DNA from: Sphingomonas sp. | GTDB taxonomy: Bacteria; Pseudomonadota; Alphaproteobacteria; Sphingomonadales; Sphingomonadaceae | NCBI RefSeq assembly: GCF_017304615.1 | Contig: NZ_JAFKLZ010000001.1 | Coordinates: 62,001-126,000, forward strand | Length of the DNA: 64,000 nt | Direction of reading: 5' to 3' | In this document: piece after piece, positions 40,640 to 47,736 of the stretch | Layout of the letters: every line of letters starts with the position of its first letter | Position numbering within the stretch: the stretch's first letter is position 1 | The notes under the pieces: model-generated | What the model was told of the DNA's origin: nothing | Database searches by the model: none | What the model saw: only the letters and a program-made list of their open reading frames with translations | Translations under genes and position numbers: made by a program

Positions 40640-42091
40640 TTAGCTGGCGCCAGATCCTGCGTCGCCGGGGCGTTCCGCGATTGCGGCCAATATGTCGCCC
40701 GCGACCTGGCTCAGCGTGTCGTCGCGCGCGCCCATCACGATGGTGCGGTCGCCGCCCTGCGCCAGCCCGGCGATCGCCGCCGCGGCCTCCGTCCGGTCGG
40801 CGATGTGGCGCGCGTCGCACCCCTTGGCGACCAGATCGGCGACGATGTCCGCACTGGTCACTTCGCGCTCGACAGTGCCCCCGTAATAGGCCGGGTCTGG
40901 CAGGATCAGCACGTCGCCGGATTTTAGGTTGGCAGCGAACGCCTCGACCAGTTCGCGGCGCATGACCTTCAACGGCCCGTACCCATGCGGCTGGAACAGG
41001 ACCAGCAGCCGCCCGGGAAAGGCGTGGAGCGTCGTCAGGGTCGCGGCGATCTTGTCGGGGTTGTGGCCGAAATCGTCGAGCACCGCGACGCCCTGCGTCT
41101 CGCCGACCAGCTCGAAGCGGCGGCGCAGCCCCGTGAACCCGCCGATCGCCACCGCTGCCTCGTCCAGCGCGACCCCGGCGGCGTGCGCGGCCGCGATTGC
41201 GGCGAGCGCGTTGGAGATGTTGTGGCGGCCGGGCACTTGCAGCTCGACCGGGATCGGGTCGTGGTCGCGCACCGCCAAGGTGAAGGCCGCACCGAACGGC
41301 CGCTCCTCGATCCCCGTCGCCATCACCTCGGCATCGGCGTTGATCGAGAACCCGACGACACGCTGCTCCGACAACGTCCGCGTCAGCGCCGCGCCGTCGG
41401 GATTGTCGAGGTTGATCACCGCGACCTCTGCCTTGGCGATAAAGTCGCCGAACAACTGGTTGAGTTCCTCGAGGCTCTTATGGTCGAGGCTGACATTATT
41501 GAGCACCGCGACGCGCGGCGCGAATAAAGCGATCGACCCGTCGCTTTCGTCCACCTCGCTGACGAAGGCGTCGCCGCCGCCGACCAGCGAACTCGCGAAC
41601 GGCGCGTTGGGGGTGGCGAAGTTCTTCATCACCGCGCCGTTCATCACGGTCGGGTCGCGGTTGGTCGCGTGCAGGATCCAGCCGATCATGCCGGTCACGG
41701 TCGACTTGCCGCTGGTTCCCGCGACGCCGATCGGCATCGTGCTGTCGTTGAACAATTCGGCCAGCATCTCCGCGCGGGTGCGCCGCTCGCAGCCCAGCCG
41801 CTCGGCGGTGACCATGTCGGGCACGGCCGCCTCGATCGCGGCGGAGGCCACGACGATCTGATCGGGCGATGTTATCCCGCTGCCATCCTGGGGGAACAGG
41901 TCGACGCCCAGGTCGCGGAGGTAATCGAACTTTGCGGGCAATCGCGACTGGTCGAGACTGCGGTCCGATCCCGCGACGCTGCGCCCCCGCGCGGCCAGGA
42001 TCATCGCCAGCGGCATCATGCCGGACCCGCCGATCCCGACGAAGAATGCGGGTTTGTCGGACGGTTCGGTTTGGGAGTTGGCGTCGGGCAT
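40640..42091 (-). CDS. mpl: Mpl, UDP-N-acetylmuramate:tripeptide ligase
   Basis: Mur-ligase-fold enzyme, 483 residues, that attaches recycled murein tripeptide to UDP-MurNAc. FFVGIGGSGMMPLA is the UDP-binding loop, GTSGKSTVTGM the ATP loop, followed by VSEVDESDGS and the central VPGRHNISNALAAIA, with late FQPHGYGPLK and DPAYYGG. The split from MurC rests on the Mpl-like SAAIEAAVPD and NAPFASSLVGGG regions and on the divergent ldcA gene next door, a murein-recycling partner. Confidence 0.88.
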   Translation of the reverse strand: MPDANSQTEPSDKPAFFVGIGGSGMMPLAMILAARGRSVAGSDRSLDQSRLPAKFDYLRDLGVDLFPQDGSGITSPDQIVVASAAIEAAVPDMVTAERLGCERRTRAEMLAELFNDSTMPIGVAGTSGKSTVTGMIGWILHATNRDPTVMNGAVMKNFATPNAPFASSLVGGGDAFVSEVDESDGSIALFAPRVAVLNNVSLDHKSLEELNQLFGDFIAKAEVAVINLDNPDGAALTRTLSEQRVVGFSINADAEVMATGIEERPFGAAFTLAVRDHDPIPVELQVPGRHNISNALAAIAAAHAAGVALDEAAVAIGGFTGLRRRFELVGETQGVAVLDDFGHNPDKIAATLTTLHAFPGRLLVLFQPHGYGPLKVMRRELVEAFAANLKSGDVLILPDPAYYGGTVEREVTSADIVADLVAKGCDARHIADRTEAAAAIAGLAQGGDRTIVMGARDDTLSQVAGDILAAIAERPGDAGSGAS

Positions 42092-42147
42092 AGGAAGCGG
42101 CTATCCCCGCTTTCGGTTATGTCGGCAAGCATGGGACGGCGGGACAA

Positions 42148-42987
42148 ATGAAAATCGCGGTGATGGCCCCCGCCAACCGAGTCGACGAACACGCGCTCGA
42201 CGCCGTGCCCGCGCTCGCCGCCGAATATGGCGTGGAGCTCGTGATCGACCCGCAATGCTGGGCGTCGGGCGGCGGACACACCTGGGCGGGGCCGGACCAG
42301 CTACGTGCCGACACTTTCCTGAAATATGCCAACGACCCCAGCTATCACGCGATCTGGTTCGCGCGCGGCGGCTACGGCTCGAACCGGCTGTTCCCGCTGA
42401 TCTTCCCGCATCTGGAGGAAGCGGCGAAGCACAAGGCCTATATCGGCTATTCGGACATGGGGTTCCTGCTCGGCGCGCTCTACGCCCGCAAGATCGGGAA
42501 GCCGATCCACGGGCCGATGCCGGTCGACATCAACCGCAAGGTGGGCGGGCGCGAATGCGCGGCGCGGACGCTGGCCTGGCTTACTCGCGGCGACAAGTCG
42601 GCGCTCGAACCCGGCATCATCGGCACCGGCAAGCCGGCGGCGGCGTTCAATCTGTCGATTCTGGCGGCGATGATCGGGACCAAGTGGCTCCCCGATCTCG
42701 CCGATCACGATCTGCTCGTCGAGGAAGTCAGCGAGCATCTCTACCGCGTCGATCGCATGATGTTCACCGTCGCGAACGCGACTCAACTTGCGGGGATCAA
42801 TTCGCTCCGGGTCGGGACGATCACGCTGCCTGACGCCGACGGCCAGGCCGATTTCGGCCATACCCCCGATCAGATCGCCTGGGACTGGTCGAAGCTTATG
42901 AAGAAGCCCTATGAGGGCCGTGCGCTGATCGGTCACGACGCCGCCAATCATGTCGTTCCGTTCGGGCAAGTAATACCGAAAATTTGA
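42148..42987 (+). CDS. ldcA: LD-carboxypeptidase (LdcA, peptidase S66)
   Basis: Cytoplasmic serine peptidase, 279 residues, that removes the terminal D-Ala from murein tetrapeptides during recycling. The catalytic Ser is in IGYSDMGFLL, Glu in VEEVSEHLYR and His in LIGHDAANH. FARGGYGSNRLFP is the conserved S66 motif. Divergent from mpl with a 56-base promoter region, so the two recycling enzymes may be co-regulated. Confidence 0.92.
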   Translation: MKIAVMAPANRVDEHALDAVPALAAEYGVELVIDPQCWASGGGHTWAGPDQLRADTFLKYANDPSYHAIWFARGGYGSNRLFPLIFPHLEEAAKHKAYIGYSDMGFLLGALYARKIGKPIHGPMPVDINRKVGGRECAARTLAWLTRGDKSALEPGIIGTGKPAAAFNLSILAAMIGTKWLPDLADHDLLVEEVSEHLYRVDRMMFTVANATQLAGINSLRVGTITLPDADGQADFGHTPDQIAWDWSKLMKKPYEGRALIGHDAANHVVPFGQVIPKI

Positions 42988-43081
42988 CCCTATTTTACAA
43001 GTAGTGGGCTTGTTCCCCGACGGTTCCGAACTTCTTGCTAACCAATTGGCGCTAGCGCTGGTCCTTGCAGGAGGGCGCTAC

Positions 43082-43540
43082 GTGCCGCAGTCGTTAGAAG
43101 CATACCACGCCGAAATCGAAGCAATGATCGTCGAGGGCGAGGGACTCGTCGCCGCCCGCGATCCCGCGACAGTCAGGCACCTCAAGCGCCGCATCGCCGA
43201 TTCGATGCTGGTGGTCGCGTCCTACCAATTGTTCATCCACCGCAACGTTTTCGCGCCGTTGCTCGGCCAGTCGGACCCCGCGCTGCGTTCGCGCGTCAAC
43301 GAAGTGAAAGTCGAATGCATTGCGCTGACCGAGGATTTGCGTTTCAACGTCAGGGATTTCCTGGCCGATGATGCCCCGCTTAACTGGGATGCTACTGCAG
43401 CCAAGATGGCGTGGTTCAACGGGCGCATGAAAAAGCACATCGCCGACGTCCGCCAATTGATGTCGCCGGACCTTAGCGACAAGCAGCACGCGGCGCTGAT
43501 CGCGCGCCGCACCGGCGTCATCGGACCGGTTGCCGCCTGA
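43082..43540 (+). CDS. hypothetical helical protein, 152 aa
   Basis: The GTG at 43082 has an excellent AGGAGG at seven bases; the frame is open from 43004 but without such a site. The product is strongly helical: RHLKRRIADSMLVVASYQLFIHRNVF and SRVNEVKVECIALTEDLRFNVRDFL, with a His/Arg-rich middle. A helical-bundle fold is likely; I cannot assign a family. Confidence 0.65.
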   Translation: MPQSLEAYHAEIEAMIVEGEGLVAARDPATVRHLKRRIADSMLVVASYQLFIHRNVFAPLLGQSDPALRSRVNEVKVECIALTEDLRFNVRDFLADDAPLNWDATAAKMAWFNGRMKKHIADVRQLMSPDLSDKQHAALIARRTGVIGPVAA

Positions 43541-43597
43541 CCTTGACAGTGGGGAGCGACGCCGCGACGGGGCGTCAACACCAATTTCAAGGGTAAT

Positions 43598-43870
43598 ATG
43601 ATGGACGACATCGCCGATTTGCAGGCCCAATTGGTCGCGTTGCGCTTGGCGGTCGAGGGTGCGTGGCTCTCGCTGTTAAGCAATGACCCCGATCCGGTGG
43701 CGCAGGCAGGCCAACTCAAGGACGCCAATGTCGCATCGGTGGATCAACTCGACGCTTCGACTCCCAACGCAAAGGCCTTGCGTGACGCGGTGGCGACGCA
43801 CACCGCTCATATCTGGGGCTCGATCGAATGGCAGCTCAAGACGATCCGAGACGAGCAGGGGAAAGCGTGA
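43598..43870 (+). CDS. hypothetical helical protein, 90 aa
   Basis: Starts at 43598 or 43601 (ATGATG) after AAGGGTA. Helical with a C-terminal ATHTAHIWGSIEWQLKTIRDEQ segment. No family recognised. The stop at 43870 falls two bases before the promoter-like boxes of the thrS leader. Confidence 0.6.
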   Translation: MMDDIADLQAQLVALRLAVEGAWLSLLSNDPDPVAQAGQLKDANVASVDQLDASTPNAKALRDAVATHTAHIWGSIEWQLKTIRDEQGKA

Positions 43871-43871
43871 C

Positions 43872-43900
43872 TGGCGTCACTCACCCATCCGTCCTATATA
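43872..43900 (+). promoter_or_regulatory. promoter of the thrS leader
   Basis: TATATA (43895-43900) is a good -10 box; TGGCGT (43872-43877) is a weak -35 with 17 bases between. The expected start of transcription falls close to the leader ATG at 43908, so the leader mRNA may begin at or near its start codon (leaderless). Confidence 0.55.
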
Positions 43901-43907
43901 AGCGCCG

Positions 43908-43982
43908 ATGAGCCGCGCTTTCGCCGTGACGACTACTACCACCCTCCCGGGTTTCCGGGGGGCTGTCGGCACGCGCCTCTAA
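43908..43982 (+). CDS. threonine-rich leader peptide of thrS, 24 aa
   Basis: ATG to TAA encodes MSRAFAVTTTTTLPGF..., with five consecutive Thr codons (ACG ACT ACT ACC ACC, codons 8-12) and another Thr at position 22. A run of five Thr in a short leader just upstream of threonyl-tRNA synthetase is the mark of a class I attenuator, as pheM is for pheST. The start is so close to the -10 box that translation would be leaderless. The stop codon lies within a hairpin of the regulatory RNA. Confidence 0.85.
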   Translation: MSRAFAVTTTTTLPGFRGAVGTRL

Positions 43983-44038
43983 CCGCGCCGACGACCTCGC
44001 CCGGGAACGGGTGAGGCTGGCGTCCGCTTTCCCGTTCC
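43943..44038 (+). promoter_or_regulatory. attenuator RNA of thrS: competing hairpins
   Basis: Several overlapping stems are readable: CCTCCCGG/CCGGGGGG (43943-43962) just after the Thr run; GTCGG..CGCG/CGCG..CCGAC around the leader stop (43965-43992); CCTCGCCCG/CGGGTGAGG (43995-44016); and GGAACGGG/CCCGTTCC (44004-44038). The last two share bases and exclude each other, as expected of an antiterminator/terminator pair. The final T run is weak, so which stem is the terminator is uncertain. Confidence 0.65.
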
Positions 44039-44095
44039 GTCTTCCAACCGGACGCCGCCGCGTGCATAGGCGCGCGCAACGCAACAGGAACGACG

Positions 44096-46096
44096 ATGAA
44101 CATGCTTTCGATCACGCTCCCCGATGGCTCCGTGCGCGAGGTCGCGCCCGGCACCACGCCGGCGGACCTTGCCGCGGCGATCGGCCCGGGCCTCGCCAAG
44201 GCGGCGATCGCCGCGCGGGTCGATGGCGAGCTGCGCGACATCACGCGGCCGTTCGACGGGAGCGCCAACCTCGCGCTGGTGACGAGCCGCGACGAGGAGG
44301 ACGCGCTCGAACTTGCCCGCCATGATTTCGCGCACGTGCTGGCGGAGGCAGTGCAGAACCTGTTCCCGGGCACGCAGATCACGTTCGGCCCGGCCACGGA
44401 TGACGGCTTCTATTACGATTTCGCGCCGAAGGATCGTCCGTTCACCGAGGAAGACCTCCCCGCGATCGAGACAGAGATGCGCCGGATCATCGCCAAGGAC
44501 GAGCCGCTGATCCGAGAAGTGTGGAGCCGCGCCGACCTGATCGCGCGCTGGAACAAGCAGGGCGAGACGTTCAAGGCCGAATGGGCGGCCGAACTGCCCG
44601 AAGGCGAGGAACTGACCGTCTACAAGGCAGGCAACGGCCCCGACGCCTGGCTCGACATGTGCCGTGGGCCGCACCTCGCTTCGACTGGCAAGCTCGATCC
44701 CAACGCCTTCAAGCTTACGCGCGTGTCGGGCGCCTATTGGCGCGGCGACCAGAACAATGCGATGTTGAGCCGCATCTATGGCACGGGCTGGCTCAACAAG
44801 AAGCAGCTCGACGAGCACCTCTTCCGGCTGGAGGAAGCCGCCAAGCGCGACCACCGCAAGCTGGGGCAGGAGATGGACCTGTTCCACCTCCAGGCCGAAG
44901 CGCATGGCAGTGTGTTCTGGCACCCGCACGGCTTCACGATCTGGCGCGCGCTGGAGGCCTATATGCGCCGCGCGATCGACGGCGCCGGCTATCAGGAAGT
45001 GAAGACGCCGCAGGTGATGGACGCGCGCCAGTGGGAGCAGTCCGGCCACTGGGGCAAGTATCGCGAGAACATGTTCGTCATTCCCGACGAAGTCCCGAAC
45101 GTCGAGGACGAAGGGCCGATCGTGTCGAACGACGCGCAATGGATGGCGCTCAAGCCGATGAACTGCCCGGCGCACGTCCTGATCTTCCGCCAGGGGATCA
45201 AGTCGTATCGCGACCTGCCGCTGCGCCTCTACGAAAACGGCTGCTGCCACCGCAACGAGCCGCACGGCGCGCTCCACGGCCTGATGCGCGTGCGCCAGTT
45301 CACGCAGGACGACGCGCACATCTTCTGCCGCGAGGACCAGATCGTCGCCGAGGTACAGGATTTCTGCCGCCTGGCCGACCGCATCTACAAGGACTTCGGC
45401 TTCAAATATTCGATCAAGCTGGCGCTGCGTCCCGACAATCGCTTCGGCACTGAGGAGATGTGGGACAAGGCCGAGGCGGAGCTGCGCGACGCCGTGGTCC
45501 GTGCCGGCATGGCGACGGAAGAATATGGCTGGGAAGAGCTGCCGGGCGAGGGGGCGTTCTATGCGCCCAAGCTCGAATGGCATTTGACCGACGCGATCGG
45601 GCGGACATGGCAGGTCGGGACGATCCAGTCCGACCGCGTGCTGCCCGAACGGCTCGACGCGAGCTATGTCGGAGAGGATGGCGAGCGGCACCGGCCGGTG
45701 ATGCTCCACCGCGCGATCTTCGGCAGCTATGAGCGCTTCATCGGCATCCTGATCGAGCATTTCGCCGGCAAGTTGCCGGTGTGGCTGGCGCCGACCCAGG
45801 CGGTGGTCGCGACGATCGTGTCCGACGCGGACGATTATGCGGTTCAGGTTGCGGCGGAGCTCAGGAAGGCCGGATTGCGTGTCGAAACCGATCTTCGCAA
45901 CGAGAAGATCAACTACAAGGTGCGCGAACATTCGCTGGCCAAGGTTCCGAACCTGCTCGTCGTGGGTAAGCGCGAGGCCGACGAGGGCACGGTCGCGCTG
46001 CGTCAGCTCGGATCTGAGCGGCAGCAGGTGCTGAGCCTCGCCGCTGTAGTCGAACAACTGGCGAAAGACGCGCTGGCGCCCGACCTCGCCGTTTAG
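44096..46096 (+). CDS. thrS: threonyl-tRNA synthetase
   Basis: Class II synthetase that charges tRNA-Thr, 666 residues. TGS domain (about residues 5-65), editing domain with [14 protein letters not shown] and the SAD pattern [10 protein letters not shown], catalytic core with the zinc ligands [13 protein letters not shown] and motif 2 [12 protein letters not shown], and an anticodon-binding C-terminus ([19 protein letters not shown]). About 110 bases of attenuator RNA lie between the leader peptide and the start. A strong bidirectional terminator follows the gene. Confidence 0.97.
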
Positions 46097-46104
46097 CAAA
46101 AATC

Positions 46105-46139
46105 GGCGGGCGGCCGAAACCGCCCGCCGCCCCCTTTTT
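46105..46139. terminator. bidirectional terminator between thrS and torF
   Basis: Nine-pair stem GGCGGGCGG/CCGCCCGCC with loop CCGAAA, followed on the plus strand by CCCCCTTTTTA and preceded by AAAAAT, which is a T run on the minus strand. It serves both convergent genes. Confidence 0.9.
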
Positions 46140-46950
46140 AAAACGCGGCACTCACCGAGAACACCACTGTCGGCCCCGCGATGGAAGATCCGTTCTTGGT
46201 CGACGAGAAATTCGGCAAAAGATACGCCGACTTCGCCTTGGTGATGTCGGTATCGACGTAGGATACGCCGAGCGTCACCGGTCCGAGCACGTAGTCGAGC
46301 CCGGCCGACCAATCGAAATAGTCCCCGGTCGGGGCGACGCTGGTGCCGTTCGGACCGAGACCGGGATTGCCGTTCGAATGGCCGAGATGCACCTTGGCAG
46401 TCAGCGGCGTCTTCGGAATGCCGACGCTGGCATCGCCCCAGATGTACAGATTGTCCTGCGATTGCCCGCGGCTTTGCGGCGTGTTGGAGAAGTTGCCGAG
46501 TGCCTTCTGCTTGGGCGCATAGGCGACGCCCGCCAACAGGCTGGCGGGACCGATCGTGGTACCCAGCTTGACATAGGGTTCGGCGAAATCGGTCAAATCG
46601 GCACCGCCAGGGTACATGTACCAGGTCAGGCCGACGTCGATCGTCGTGCCGCTGGCGACTTCCTTCTTGAACCCGGCATACAGGTCGAGTTCCAGGTTGG
46701 CGCCGCCGAACGTGCCCCAGCCAGCCAAGTTCGATCCCCAGGTGCCGATATAAAGGCCGCTCTCATGCGCGACACTGACTCCGCCTTGCACGGCGATCTG
46801 CTTGTCGGTTTGCGAAACACCGCGAAAGCGATAGTCGCTGACGACGGCCACACCGCCCGACACCGTAATGGGCTTGGGCGGTTCTTCCTGCGCGAACGCG
46901 GGGGTGGCAGTGCATAACAACGCCGAAAACACGGCCAGACGATATTTCAT
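46138..46950 (-). CDS. TorF-family putative porin (Gcw_chp), 270 aa
   Basis: Outer-membrane beta-barrel. Signal peptide MKYRLAVFSALLCTATPAFA, then GGVAVVSDYRFRGVSQTDKQ, the family hallmark, and repeated aromatic strand patterns ending in VVFSVSAAF with a terminal Phe for barrel assembly. Substrate unknown. The ATG at 46950 follows AGGGGGAA. Confidence 0.92.
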   Translation of the reverse strand: MKYRLAVFSALLCTATPAFAQEEPPKPITVSGGVAVVSDYRFRGVSQTDKQIAVQGGVSVAHESGLYIGTWGSNLAGWGTFGGANLELDLYAGFKKEVASGTTIDVGLTWYMYPGGADLTDFAEPYVKLGTTIGPASLLAGVAYAPKQKALGNFSNTPQSRGQSQDNLYIWGDASVGIPKTPLTAKVHLGHSNGNPGLGPNGTSVAPTGDYFDWSAGLDYVLGPVTLGVSYVDTDITKAKSAYLLPNFSSTKNGSSIAGPTVVFSVSAAF

Positions 46951-47190
46951 GGAACATTCCCCCTGCTTTTATTGAGGTGGTGAACGTTCCGCCTGCGGGC
47001 CGCCCGGCTGCGCCTTCTCTGGGACCATGAGACGACATGCCGGACGACACGCTTTGGCTATCCTCCGGGTGGGAGCGGGGAGTTGCTGGATTGTGACGAA
47101 GTGTTTCTGGCGTGCCTTCGTCCACGCCCGCTTTCCAAGTCGATGCCGAAAGCTTATATCGGCGCTCCCGTAACCACAGGAGCATCACCT

Positions 47191-47736
47191 ATCCCACCGC
47201 CCAATATGCGCCGGCCTTTGCAGGCGCCGCCGATGAACGGCCCCCGATTCAACGAATTCATCCAGTCGCCCAAGGTCCGCGTAATCGACCATGAGGGCGA
47301 GAATCTCGGCGTGATGTACACGCGCGAAGCGATGGAGCAGGCCGCCGAACTGGGTCTGGACCTGGTCGAAGTGTCGCCCAACGCGGACCCGCCGGTCGCG
47401 AAGTTCCTGGATGTCGGCAAGTTCAAGTACGAGGCCCAGAAAAAGGCCAACCTTGCCCGCAAGAGCCAGAAGACGCAGGAGATCAAGGAGATCAAGATGC
47501 GTCCGAACATCGACGATCATGACTATGAGACGAAGATGAAGGCCGTCCACAAGTTCATCGGCGAAGGCGACAAGGTGAAGATAACGCTGCGCTTCCGCGG
47601 TCGCGAATTGTCGCACGGTCAGCTGGGCATGAACCTGCTCAAGCGCGTTCAGGAAGACACGGTCGAGGACGCCAAGGTCGAATCCTATCCGCGCATGGAA
47701 GGCCGGCAGATGCTGATGGTGCTGGCGCCCAAGTGA
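47191..47736 (+). CDS. infC: translation initiation factor IF-3, probable AUC start
   Basis: Binds the 30S subunit and checks the initiation codon; about 181 residues. The N-domain carries [14 protein letters not shown] and [16 protein letters not shown]; the C-domain [20 protein letters not shown] and [15 protein letters not shown]. The only good ribosome binding site, AGGAG at 47178-47182, lies eight bases before ATC at 47191, in frame; the first ATG (47206) is 15 bases later. infC genes often use AUU/AUC/AUA for autoregulation, so ATC is the favoured start. rpmI and rplT do not follow. Confidence 0.9.

Follow-up and report, generated by a model that had tools for sequence, protein, structure and literature searches.

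Within the window (the whole stretch of Sphingomonas sp. DNA analysed here, 64,000 nt long), the gene thrS encodes a threonyl-tRNA synthetase (ThrRS) with TGS, SAD, class II core and anticodon-binding domains, and this product is the one ThrRS match in the genome. On its 3' side, a strong hairpin at 46104-46129, flanked by five Ts on either side (reading CCCCCTTTTT on the strand of thrS and ATTTTTGCTA on the opposite one), lies between thrS and a minus-strand gene and is probably a two-way terminator. That gene, a member of the Gcw_chp family (46138-46950, minus strand), separates thrS from infC (initiation factor IF-3; 47083-47736, plus strand), two genes that are neighbours in E. coli. Upstream of thrS, a short threonine-rich open reading frame is followed by a series of potential RNA helices, and the features to which we refer below are as follows.

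43871..43876, plus strand: probable -35 element CTGGCG, 18 nt 5' of the -10 box, a weak match to TTGACA
43895..43900, plus strand: -10 box TATATA, implying that the transcript starts at the leader ATG or 1-2 nt 5' of it
43908..43982, plus strand: leader ORF of 24 codons plus stop, from the ORF reading and the leaders of relatives
43929..43943, plus strand: five Thr control codons, the predicted stall site, from the sequence and an in-silico ribosome walk
43943..43962, plus strand: hairpin A (segments 1:2), with a 5' arm that touches the final Thr codon, from folding
43951..44008, plus strand: helix 2:3, predicted with a ribosome on the Thr codons and consuming the 5' arm of C
43995..44016, plus strand: hairpin C, CCUCGCCCG-GGAA-CGGGUGAGG, from covariation in relatives and RNAalifold
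44004..44011, plus strand: segment X, GGAACGGG, covering the loop and the 3' arm of C, the putative 5' side of an antiterminator
44018..44057, plus strand: hairpin D, UGGCGUCCG-22 nt-CGGACGCCG, the presumed OFF structure, from covariation in relatives
44031..44038, plus strand: segment Y, CCCGTTCC, inside the loop of D, the putative 3' side of the antiterminator
44060..44075, plus strand: small hairpin GCGUGC-AUAG-GCGCGC between D and the thrS ribosome-binding site, its link to the switch putative
44086..44089, plus strand: Shine-Dalgarno (SD) sequence of thrS, AGGA, from the sequence
44096..46096, plus strand: thrS, the proposed controlled gene, from domains and profile matches

The leader ORF encodes MSRAFAVTTTTTLPGFRGAVGTRL, in which codons 8-12 are consecutive Thr codons (ACG ACT ACT ACC ACC), and its stop lies 113 nt before the thrS start at 44096. 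The first-pass annotation had described a 24-codon leader with five threonines in a row next to a TATATA -10 box; both were confirmed, the box lying 7 nt 5' of the leader ATG. A weight-matrix program chose a different promoter for the window (GTCACT/TATAAG, spacing 15), and the leader promoter is absent from the output of a promoter consensus search of the window. The CTGGCG hexamer recurs, identical or nearly so and at spacing 18, in three related loci (L086, L100 and L030), and because of the first two of these we consider CTGGCG (43871) with TATATA (43895) the likelier pair. Promoters were scored with a weight matrix of our own across 81 loci (the 75 parsed loci described below, plus six); the best sigma-70-like one has a spacer of 17 nt in 63 loci and outscores its own shuffles in 77. 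In 68 of these 81 loci the first in-frame start follows the -10 box after a gap of 6-8 nt, and a Shine-Dalgarno-like motif precedes the leader start in three. A transcript beginning 6-7 nt past the -10 box would open at the start codon, suggesting that the leader peptide is translated leaderless, as the first-pass annotation had supposed; the fixed promoter gap strengthens that proposal, and it is from this gap that we infer the transcription start itself.

We compared the upstream regions (up to 400 nt before thrS) of relatives, scoring as a Thr leader any ORF of at most 60 codons with its stop 260 to 60 nt 5' of thrS and at least four Thr in eight codons. Such leaders were found at 54 of 141 family loci (four rejected by eye; 149 genomes searched, seven yielding fragments and one no match), at 18 of 59 genus loci (one rejected by eye; 61 genomes searched) and at 18 of 79 loci from the best 80 of 587 relatives, 79 of which had at least 300 nt upstream. 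In all, 89 distinct loci qualified, of which five (L136, L222, L262, L265 and L278) were rejected by eye, L222 being a possible weak leader. Less pronounced leaders, for instance those of L096 and L097, escape the criterion, as does the element in three genomes where some 575-590 nt separate it from thrS. When runs of at least five of one residue in eight codons were counted in 279 upstream regions, Thr gave 75, Arg 17 and Ala 14. The Thr run thus recurs, as the first-pass annotation had anticipated, and the loss of conserved Thr codons and stems that it had named as the danger to its reading did not occur, although most relatives have no leader. It is because of this conservation, and not of folding energy, that the observation exceeds chance.

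On a ThrRS tree of 115 rows, 36 of them with a leader, at least 15 changes are needed, against a shuffled mean of 30.8, and well-supported branches force at least seven (on a quick tree with SH-aLRT support only). The leader trait, as judged from these upstream regions, is patchy across the family. Three loci (L223, L226 and L228) have no recognised Thr leader, yet carry CTTTTCGTCGC after a GC-rich stretch; these are possibly decayed attenuators. Outside the family, 142 genomes of the class were searched and 87 upstream regions examined with a looser limit (four in eight codons, stop 300 to 30 nt before thrS). Thr leaders were found at three of these 87 alphaproteobacterial loci, no more than other residues predict (Arg 20, Ala 18 and Ser 14 under the same limit); because those residues are commoner, the three rest on their layout and not on enrichment.

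Downstream of the Thr codons, the window contains a chain of structures, namely 1:2, 2:3, C, X:Y and D, in which X and Y are exact 8-bp complements. Hairpin D is followed by CCGCGUGC, with no U-tract, and its loop, CUUUCCCGUUCCGUCUUCCAAC, has 18 pyrimidines among 22 nt. The overlapping, mutually exclusive hairpins proposed by the first-pass annotation are present, with compensatory changes in relatives; the chain, however, exceeds the classical four segments. The folding energy of the leader stretch is unremarkable (z -1.64, with 13 of 200 shuffles folding at least as well), and D is absent from the output of a terminator consensus search of the window. A search against Rfam (4227 families) of window positions 42000-47000 and of 20 of the 84 accepted leader loci gave no match at gathering score to a known leader or a T-box, the best matches falling far below. 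By eye, a motif or small hairpin (GTGCATAGGCGCG, TGTGCCATGGCGC, GGCATAAGCC) lies 5' of the thrS ribosome-binding site in loci both with and without a leader.

Of the 84 accepted loci, nine were left out of the folding analyses, seven because they were poorly parsed (L020, L048, L055, L079, L123, L172 and L220) and two as copies (L145 of L020, and L188 of L035), giving 75 parsed loci. In these, the leader is followed by C and then by D, whose loop usually holds a Y complementary to X; the stems were selected for pairing in this parsing, so that these pairs are no evidence of covariation. An example in which both sides have changed relative to the window is L037, where X is GAGACGGG and Y is CCCGTCTC. 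Covariation was assessed in an alignment, A1, of 39 of the 75 loci, picked by eye for similar layout and alignability, with L001 as the only one of the window's close kin. The loci are akin, so the p-values and shuffles given here and below overstate their independence. In A1, C and D together have 94.3% standard pairs, against 35-57% for slid structures, and 32 cells are changed on both sides, against a shuffled mean of 12.0 (0/500 as high). Two of the five measures for C and D are weak: pairs changed on both sides (6 vs 3.9; 16/500) and pair types (16 vs 15.0; 142/500). X:Y has 88.8% standard pairs in A1, with 14 cells changed on both sides against 5.1 (0/500). RNAalifold recovers C and D unaided from A1; from an alignment of 77 loci, in which the 3' arm of D is misaligned, it recovers only part of C.

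These pairings were also examined with a word test on 77 loci (the 75 plus two), in which the 3' side is not aligned. For D, the species' own complement of the 5'-arm 6-mer was found downstream in 41 of 69 loci, against 5.0% for the words of other species; among species with a non-modal word, 26 of 39 had their own complement and two of 39 the modal one. For X:Y, the own complement was found in 27 of 71 (vs 5.7%), and among species with a non-modal word in 15 of 51, against seven of 51 for the modal complement. A different 6-mer frame for X:Y was weaker (12/71 vs 4.4%), a 7-mer was similar (26/71 vs 3.7%), and seven control columns gave 0 to 6 hits each. The mean X:Y duplex energy is -15.1 kcal/mol for a locus's own segments, compared with -11.8 for swapped and -10.5 for shuffled ones, and the own duplex beats the swapped mean in 65 of the 75 loci. 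The stems C, D and X:Y therefore covary, bearing out the compensatory changes that the first-pass annotation had expected in relatives.

An RNA model, R1, trained on A1 matches 55 of the 149 family genomes at E ≤0.01, a count that is not independent evidence of presence because most rows of A1 come from the genomes searched. The position of the matches next to thrS is independent evidence: all 51 matches at E ≤2.3e-5 lie upstream of thrS and on its strand, and five weaker ones do not. In three genomes (G066, G119 and G159) the match lies about 575-590 nt before thrS. At the G066 locus (L397), a complete ORF lies between the attenuator and thrS, and the start of the same ORF is seen at the G159 locus (L396); at both, D stands directly 5' of the start of this ORF. 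The intervening ORF (MRYYIDTEFNGTDGQ...) resembles a DEDD exonuclease by eye, with no Pfam match. Among 289 genomes of the class, six had an R1 match, of which the three strong ones are all in this family and the three weak ones are at loci that show no ThrRS.

We then modelled a ribosome moving codon by codon along the 75 leaders, excluding from pairing every base as far as 10 nt beyond the A-site codon, and calculated P(D), the chance of D forming, for transcripts extending just far enough to include all of D. Averaged over the leaders, P(D) stands at 0.51 when the ribosome is four codons short of the run's last Thr, falls to 0.24, 0.26, 0.22 and 0.18 on the last four Thr codons, and rises after the run to 0.42 one codon on, 0.66 two codons on and 0.80 at the stop. 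X:Y pairing mirrors this dip: there are 4.27 pairs with the ribosome on the last Thr codon but 0.73 after two further codons, and in 45 of 75 loci the maximum falls on one of the final four Thr codons. A second, shallower dip (0.38-0.42), at which X:Y is about 1, occurs five to eight codons past the run. In 69 of 75 loci, P(D) on Thr falls short of its value at the stop by over 0.05; it is lower than without a ribosome in 46, and rises on Thr in three (L037, L207 and L279); two loci (L110 and L125) have no equilibrium switch, with P(D) of 0.98-0.99 on Thr. When the sequence separating the Thr run from C was shuffled, X:Y dropped from 3.95 to 1.57 pairs (own higher in 51/75) and P(D) rose to 0.33 from 0.22 (own value lower in 54/75). 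Taken together, the walk and the shuffles suggest that the RNA is on average tuned to a ribosome on the Thr codons, such that shortage would give read-through, and that, in the model and on the family average, the position of the ribosome on the control codons decides which helix forms.

The window is a weaker case. Once D is complete, equilibrium folding gives P(D) of 0.86 on Thr and 0.94 at the stop, and shuffling segment 2/3 drops P(D) from 0.84 to 0.67, opposite to the expected rise. In a window transcript ending before the 3' arm of D, 5.2 X:Y pairs form with the ribosome on the first Thr codon and 11.3-11.7 on Thr codons 2-5, and the pairing is not confined to Thr, since there are 10.7 pairs on Leu13 and 11.8 on Pro14; from Gly15 to the stop there are 0.1-3.2. 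X:Y already has 5.8-7.4 pairs on codons 4-7, before the Thr run. According to this model, the switch in the window needs X:Y to form first and to hold while D is made, and such holding is something that equilibrium folding cannot show.

From this comparison and modelling, we consider that the element is most likely a ribosome-mediated attenuator of thrS that senses Thr-tRNA, with a probability of roughly 0.85. Transcription would start at the leader ATG, and a ribosome would load on the leaderless 5' end. When charged tRNA-Thr is short, the ribosome would stall on the Thr run and block A, whereupon the 5' arm of C would be taken up by segment 2; the 3' arm of C (X), thus freed, would pair with Y, and with X:Y standing D could not close and transcription would continue into thrS. 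When Thr-tRNA is plentiful, the ribosome would advance, C would form, Y would stay in the loop of D, and the closed D would cut thrS expression. Because many relatives keep the same layout, the switch probably raises thrS expression when Thr-charged tRNA runs short. Comparison and in-silico folding support the leader and its codons, the structures C, X:Y and D, their mutual exclusivity, and the tuning to Thr codons, and so favour the first-pass proposal of attenuation responding to charged tRNA-Thr, the response itself being predicted; the transcription start, the stall and the ending of transcription at D are steps that we infer.

The least certain element is how D acts in the window, because D there has no U-tract. 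Across loci, D has a 5-11 bp stem, a loop of mostly 20-30 nt and a poor U-tail: UUU follows it in 23 of the 75 loci and at least five U in 8 nt in 10, and the window has neither. Mapped terminators of Zymomonas, also a sphingomonad, are described in the accessible part of their report as having about 11 bp, a 4-nt loop and a U-tract (PMC7566282). The stem, loop and U-tail of D are unlike these, indicating that in most of the 75 loci D is no terminator of the ordinary kind; the absent U-tract lowers the claim of intrinsic termination, not the claim of a switch. In L086, L100 and their near kin, X:Y together with the following GUCUUUUCC was considered as a terminator, but a stall would on that reading turn thrS off, for which reason it was rejected; the stem of D is kept there in changed form. 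A fuller account, in which a patchily inherited, family-wide thrS attenuator combines a leaderless leader with a five-helix relay and a D that acts via Rho or via pausing and RNA decay, is one that we hold tentatively, at a little under even odds.

That D in the window has no U-tract is equally what one would expect if termination there were Rho dependent, with the pyrimidine-rich D loop (18 of 22) and the untranslated stretch past the leader stop admitting Rho when X:Y is not formed. This we consider doubtful, given that the pyrimidine-rich stretch is short in a leader otherwise rich in G, that the arms of D covary, which Rho alone would not need, and that 10 of the 75 relatives do have a U-rich tail. 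The same missing U-tract would suit translational attenuation, in which Y (CGUUCC) pairs with the SD region AGGAACG and X:Y releases it, so that the switch hides or frees the thrS SD. Y in the window is indeed complementary to AGGAACG, strong Y:SD duplexes are predicted in L086 (-13.5 kcal/mol), L108 (-12.7), L207 (-13.9) and L216 (-17.5), and over the 75 loci Y:SD pairing beats that of shuffled Y (-9.97 vs -8.53, p 0.0005). In addition, the SD is predicted to be freer on Thr than at the stop in L101 (0.50 vs 0.25) and L207 (0.41 vs 0.10), and in L396 and L397 D lies directly before the start of another ORF. Y:SD pairing is, however, no better than with the Y of other species (swapped -9.24, p 0.08; own beats the swapped mean in 38/75). 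In folds that cannot represent a loop-SD pseudoknot, the SD has a mean accessibility of 0.42 with the ribosome on Thr and of 0.43 with it at the stop; accessibility is higher on Thr in 11 loci and lower in 21 of 75, and in the window it goes in the wrong direction (0.57 on Thr, 0.86 at the stop). Sequestration of the SD is thus unsupported, accessibility being independent of ribosome position in these folds, outside which pseudoknots lie, and we regard translational attenuation as unlikely.

The recurrence, by eye, of the motif or small hairpin before the SD in loci with and without a leader would fit control of an E. coli-like kind, with ThrRS binding its own mRNA and the leader secondary. 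Such autoregulation is a step that the logic of the leader does not need, and as the principal control it seems to us quite unlikely, although both could coexist. The ordinary folding energy (z -1.64) and the many relatives without a leader are, lastly, what would be expected if leader and hairpins were incidental, a GC-rich stretch encoding Thr by chance; the enrichment of Thr over other residues, the compensatory changes, the fixed promoter gap, the folds tuned to Thr codons and the restriction of strong R1 matches to thrS make this very improbable.

Classical ribosome-mediated attenuators, such as those of trp, his, thrA and pheST in E. coli, share with the proposed thrS attenuator a leader peptide with cognate codons, competing helices and read-through upon stalling. 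The thrS element differs from them in being apparently leaderless, in its longer chain (2:3 frees X, and X:Y blocks D), in a D that departs from the standard terminator in most of the 75 loci, and in its target. The thrS operator of E. coli likewise controls thrS but is protein mediated and translational, ThrRS binding its own mRNA and thereby autoregulating its translation. In the accessible portion of Naville and Gautheret (PMC2965389), ThrRS is mentioned only as the E. coli protein-regulated case.

The nearest precedent is thrL of Streptomyces lividans TK24, which the available text of that study describes as a leaderless ORF (MKRVRPFLETTPGFVPAR) before thrS, followed by one hairpin without a U-rich tract for which its authors call termination unclear (PMC8079986). 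As far as that text goes, which offers neither a comparison nor covariation, the likeness is one of layout (a leaderless Thr leader before thrS and a hairpin without a U-rich tract); thrL differs in belonging to an actinobacterium and in having two Thr codons, where the leaders here have at least four in eight. The sequence TTPGF stands right after the Thr codons both in the leader of L095 and in S. lividans thrL as given there; the window has TTLPGF. Among alphaproteobacteria, the consulted sections on Sinorhizobium meliloti trpL describe a leader ORF that starts at the mRNA 5' end (PMC7298713, PMC10117765), likewise a leaderless attenuator but one concerned with tryptophan and trpE. The S. 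meliloti small ORF SEP5, with six Thr codons, is suggested in a section of the second of these to encode a leader peptide (PMC10117765); it differs in having three Lys codons too and in lying before a gene for aspartate dehydrogenase. In Caulobacter crescentus, a leader CDS is reported to precede trpS (PMC4117421), again in the same class and before a synthetase gene, though for trpS and, in the portion available, with no mechanism given. One locus of another alphaproteobacterial family (L300) has, as here, a Thr leader (MFKRPTIETTATTTLLEGP) before thrS, but with a terminator of textbook type (GACCCTCC...GGAGGGTTTTTT, T6); its genome (G271) is not among the six genomes of R1 matches listed, and on its layout L300 is apparently a separate, simple classical attenuator.

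No report of a thrS attenuator in alphaproteobacteria was found in the literature searched, of which subscription papers were mostly not part. The suggestion in the first-pass annotation of a poorly described synthetase attenuator fits that literature, but a leader CDS before another synthetase gene, trpS, is described in the accessible part of the Caulobacter report (PMC4117421). On the present comparison and modelling, the thrS element would be a variant of ribosome-mediated attenuation apparently not previously described in alphaproteobacteria.

If this reading is true, alphaproteobacteria have leader-peptide control of a synthetase that is regulated otherwise in E. coli. A ribosome that starts on a bare 5' end would face a timing problem unlike that of the classical attenuator. 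How the OFF state works is a clear, testable question posed by a U-tract that is weak or absent. The dozens of natural variants constitute ready-made compensatory mutants, and the switch could serve as a reporter of threonine starvation in sphingomonads.
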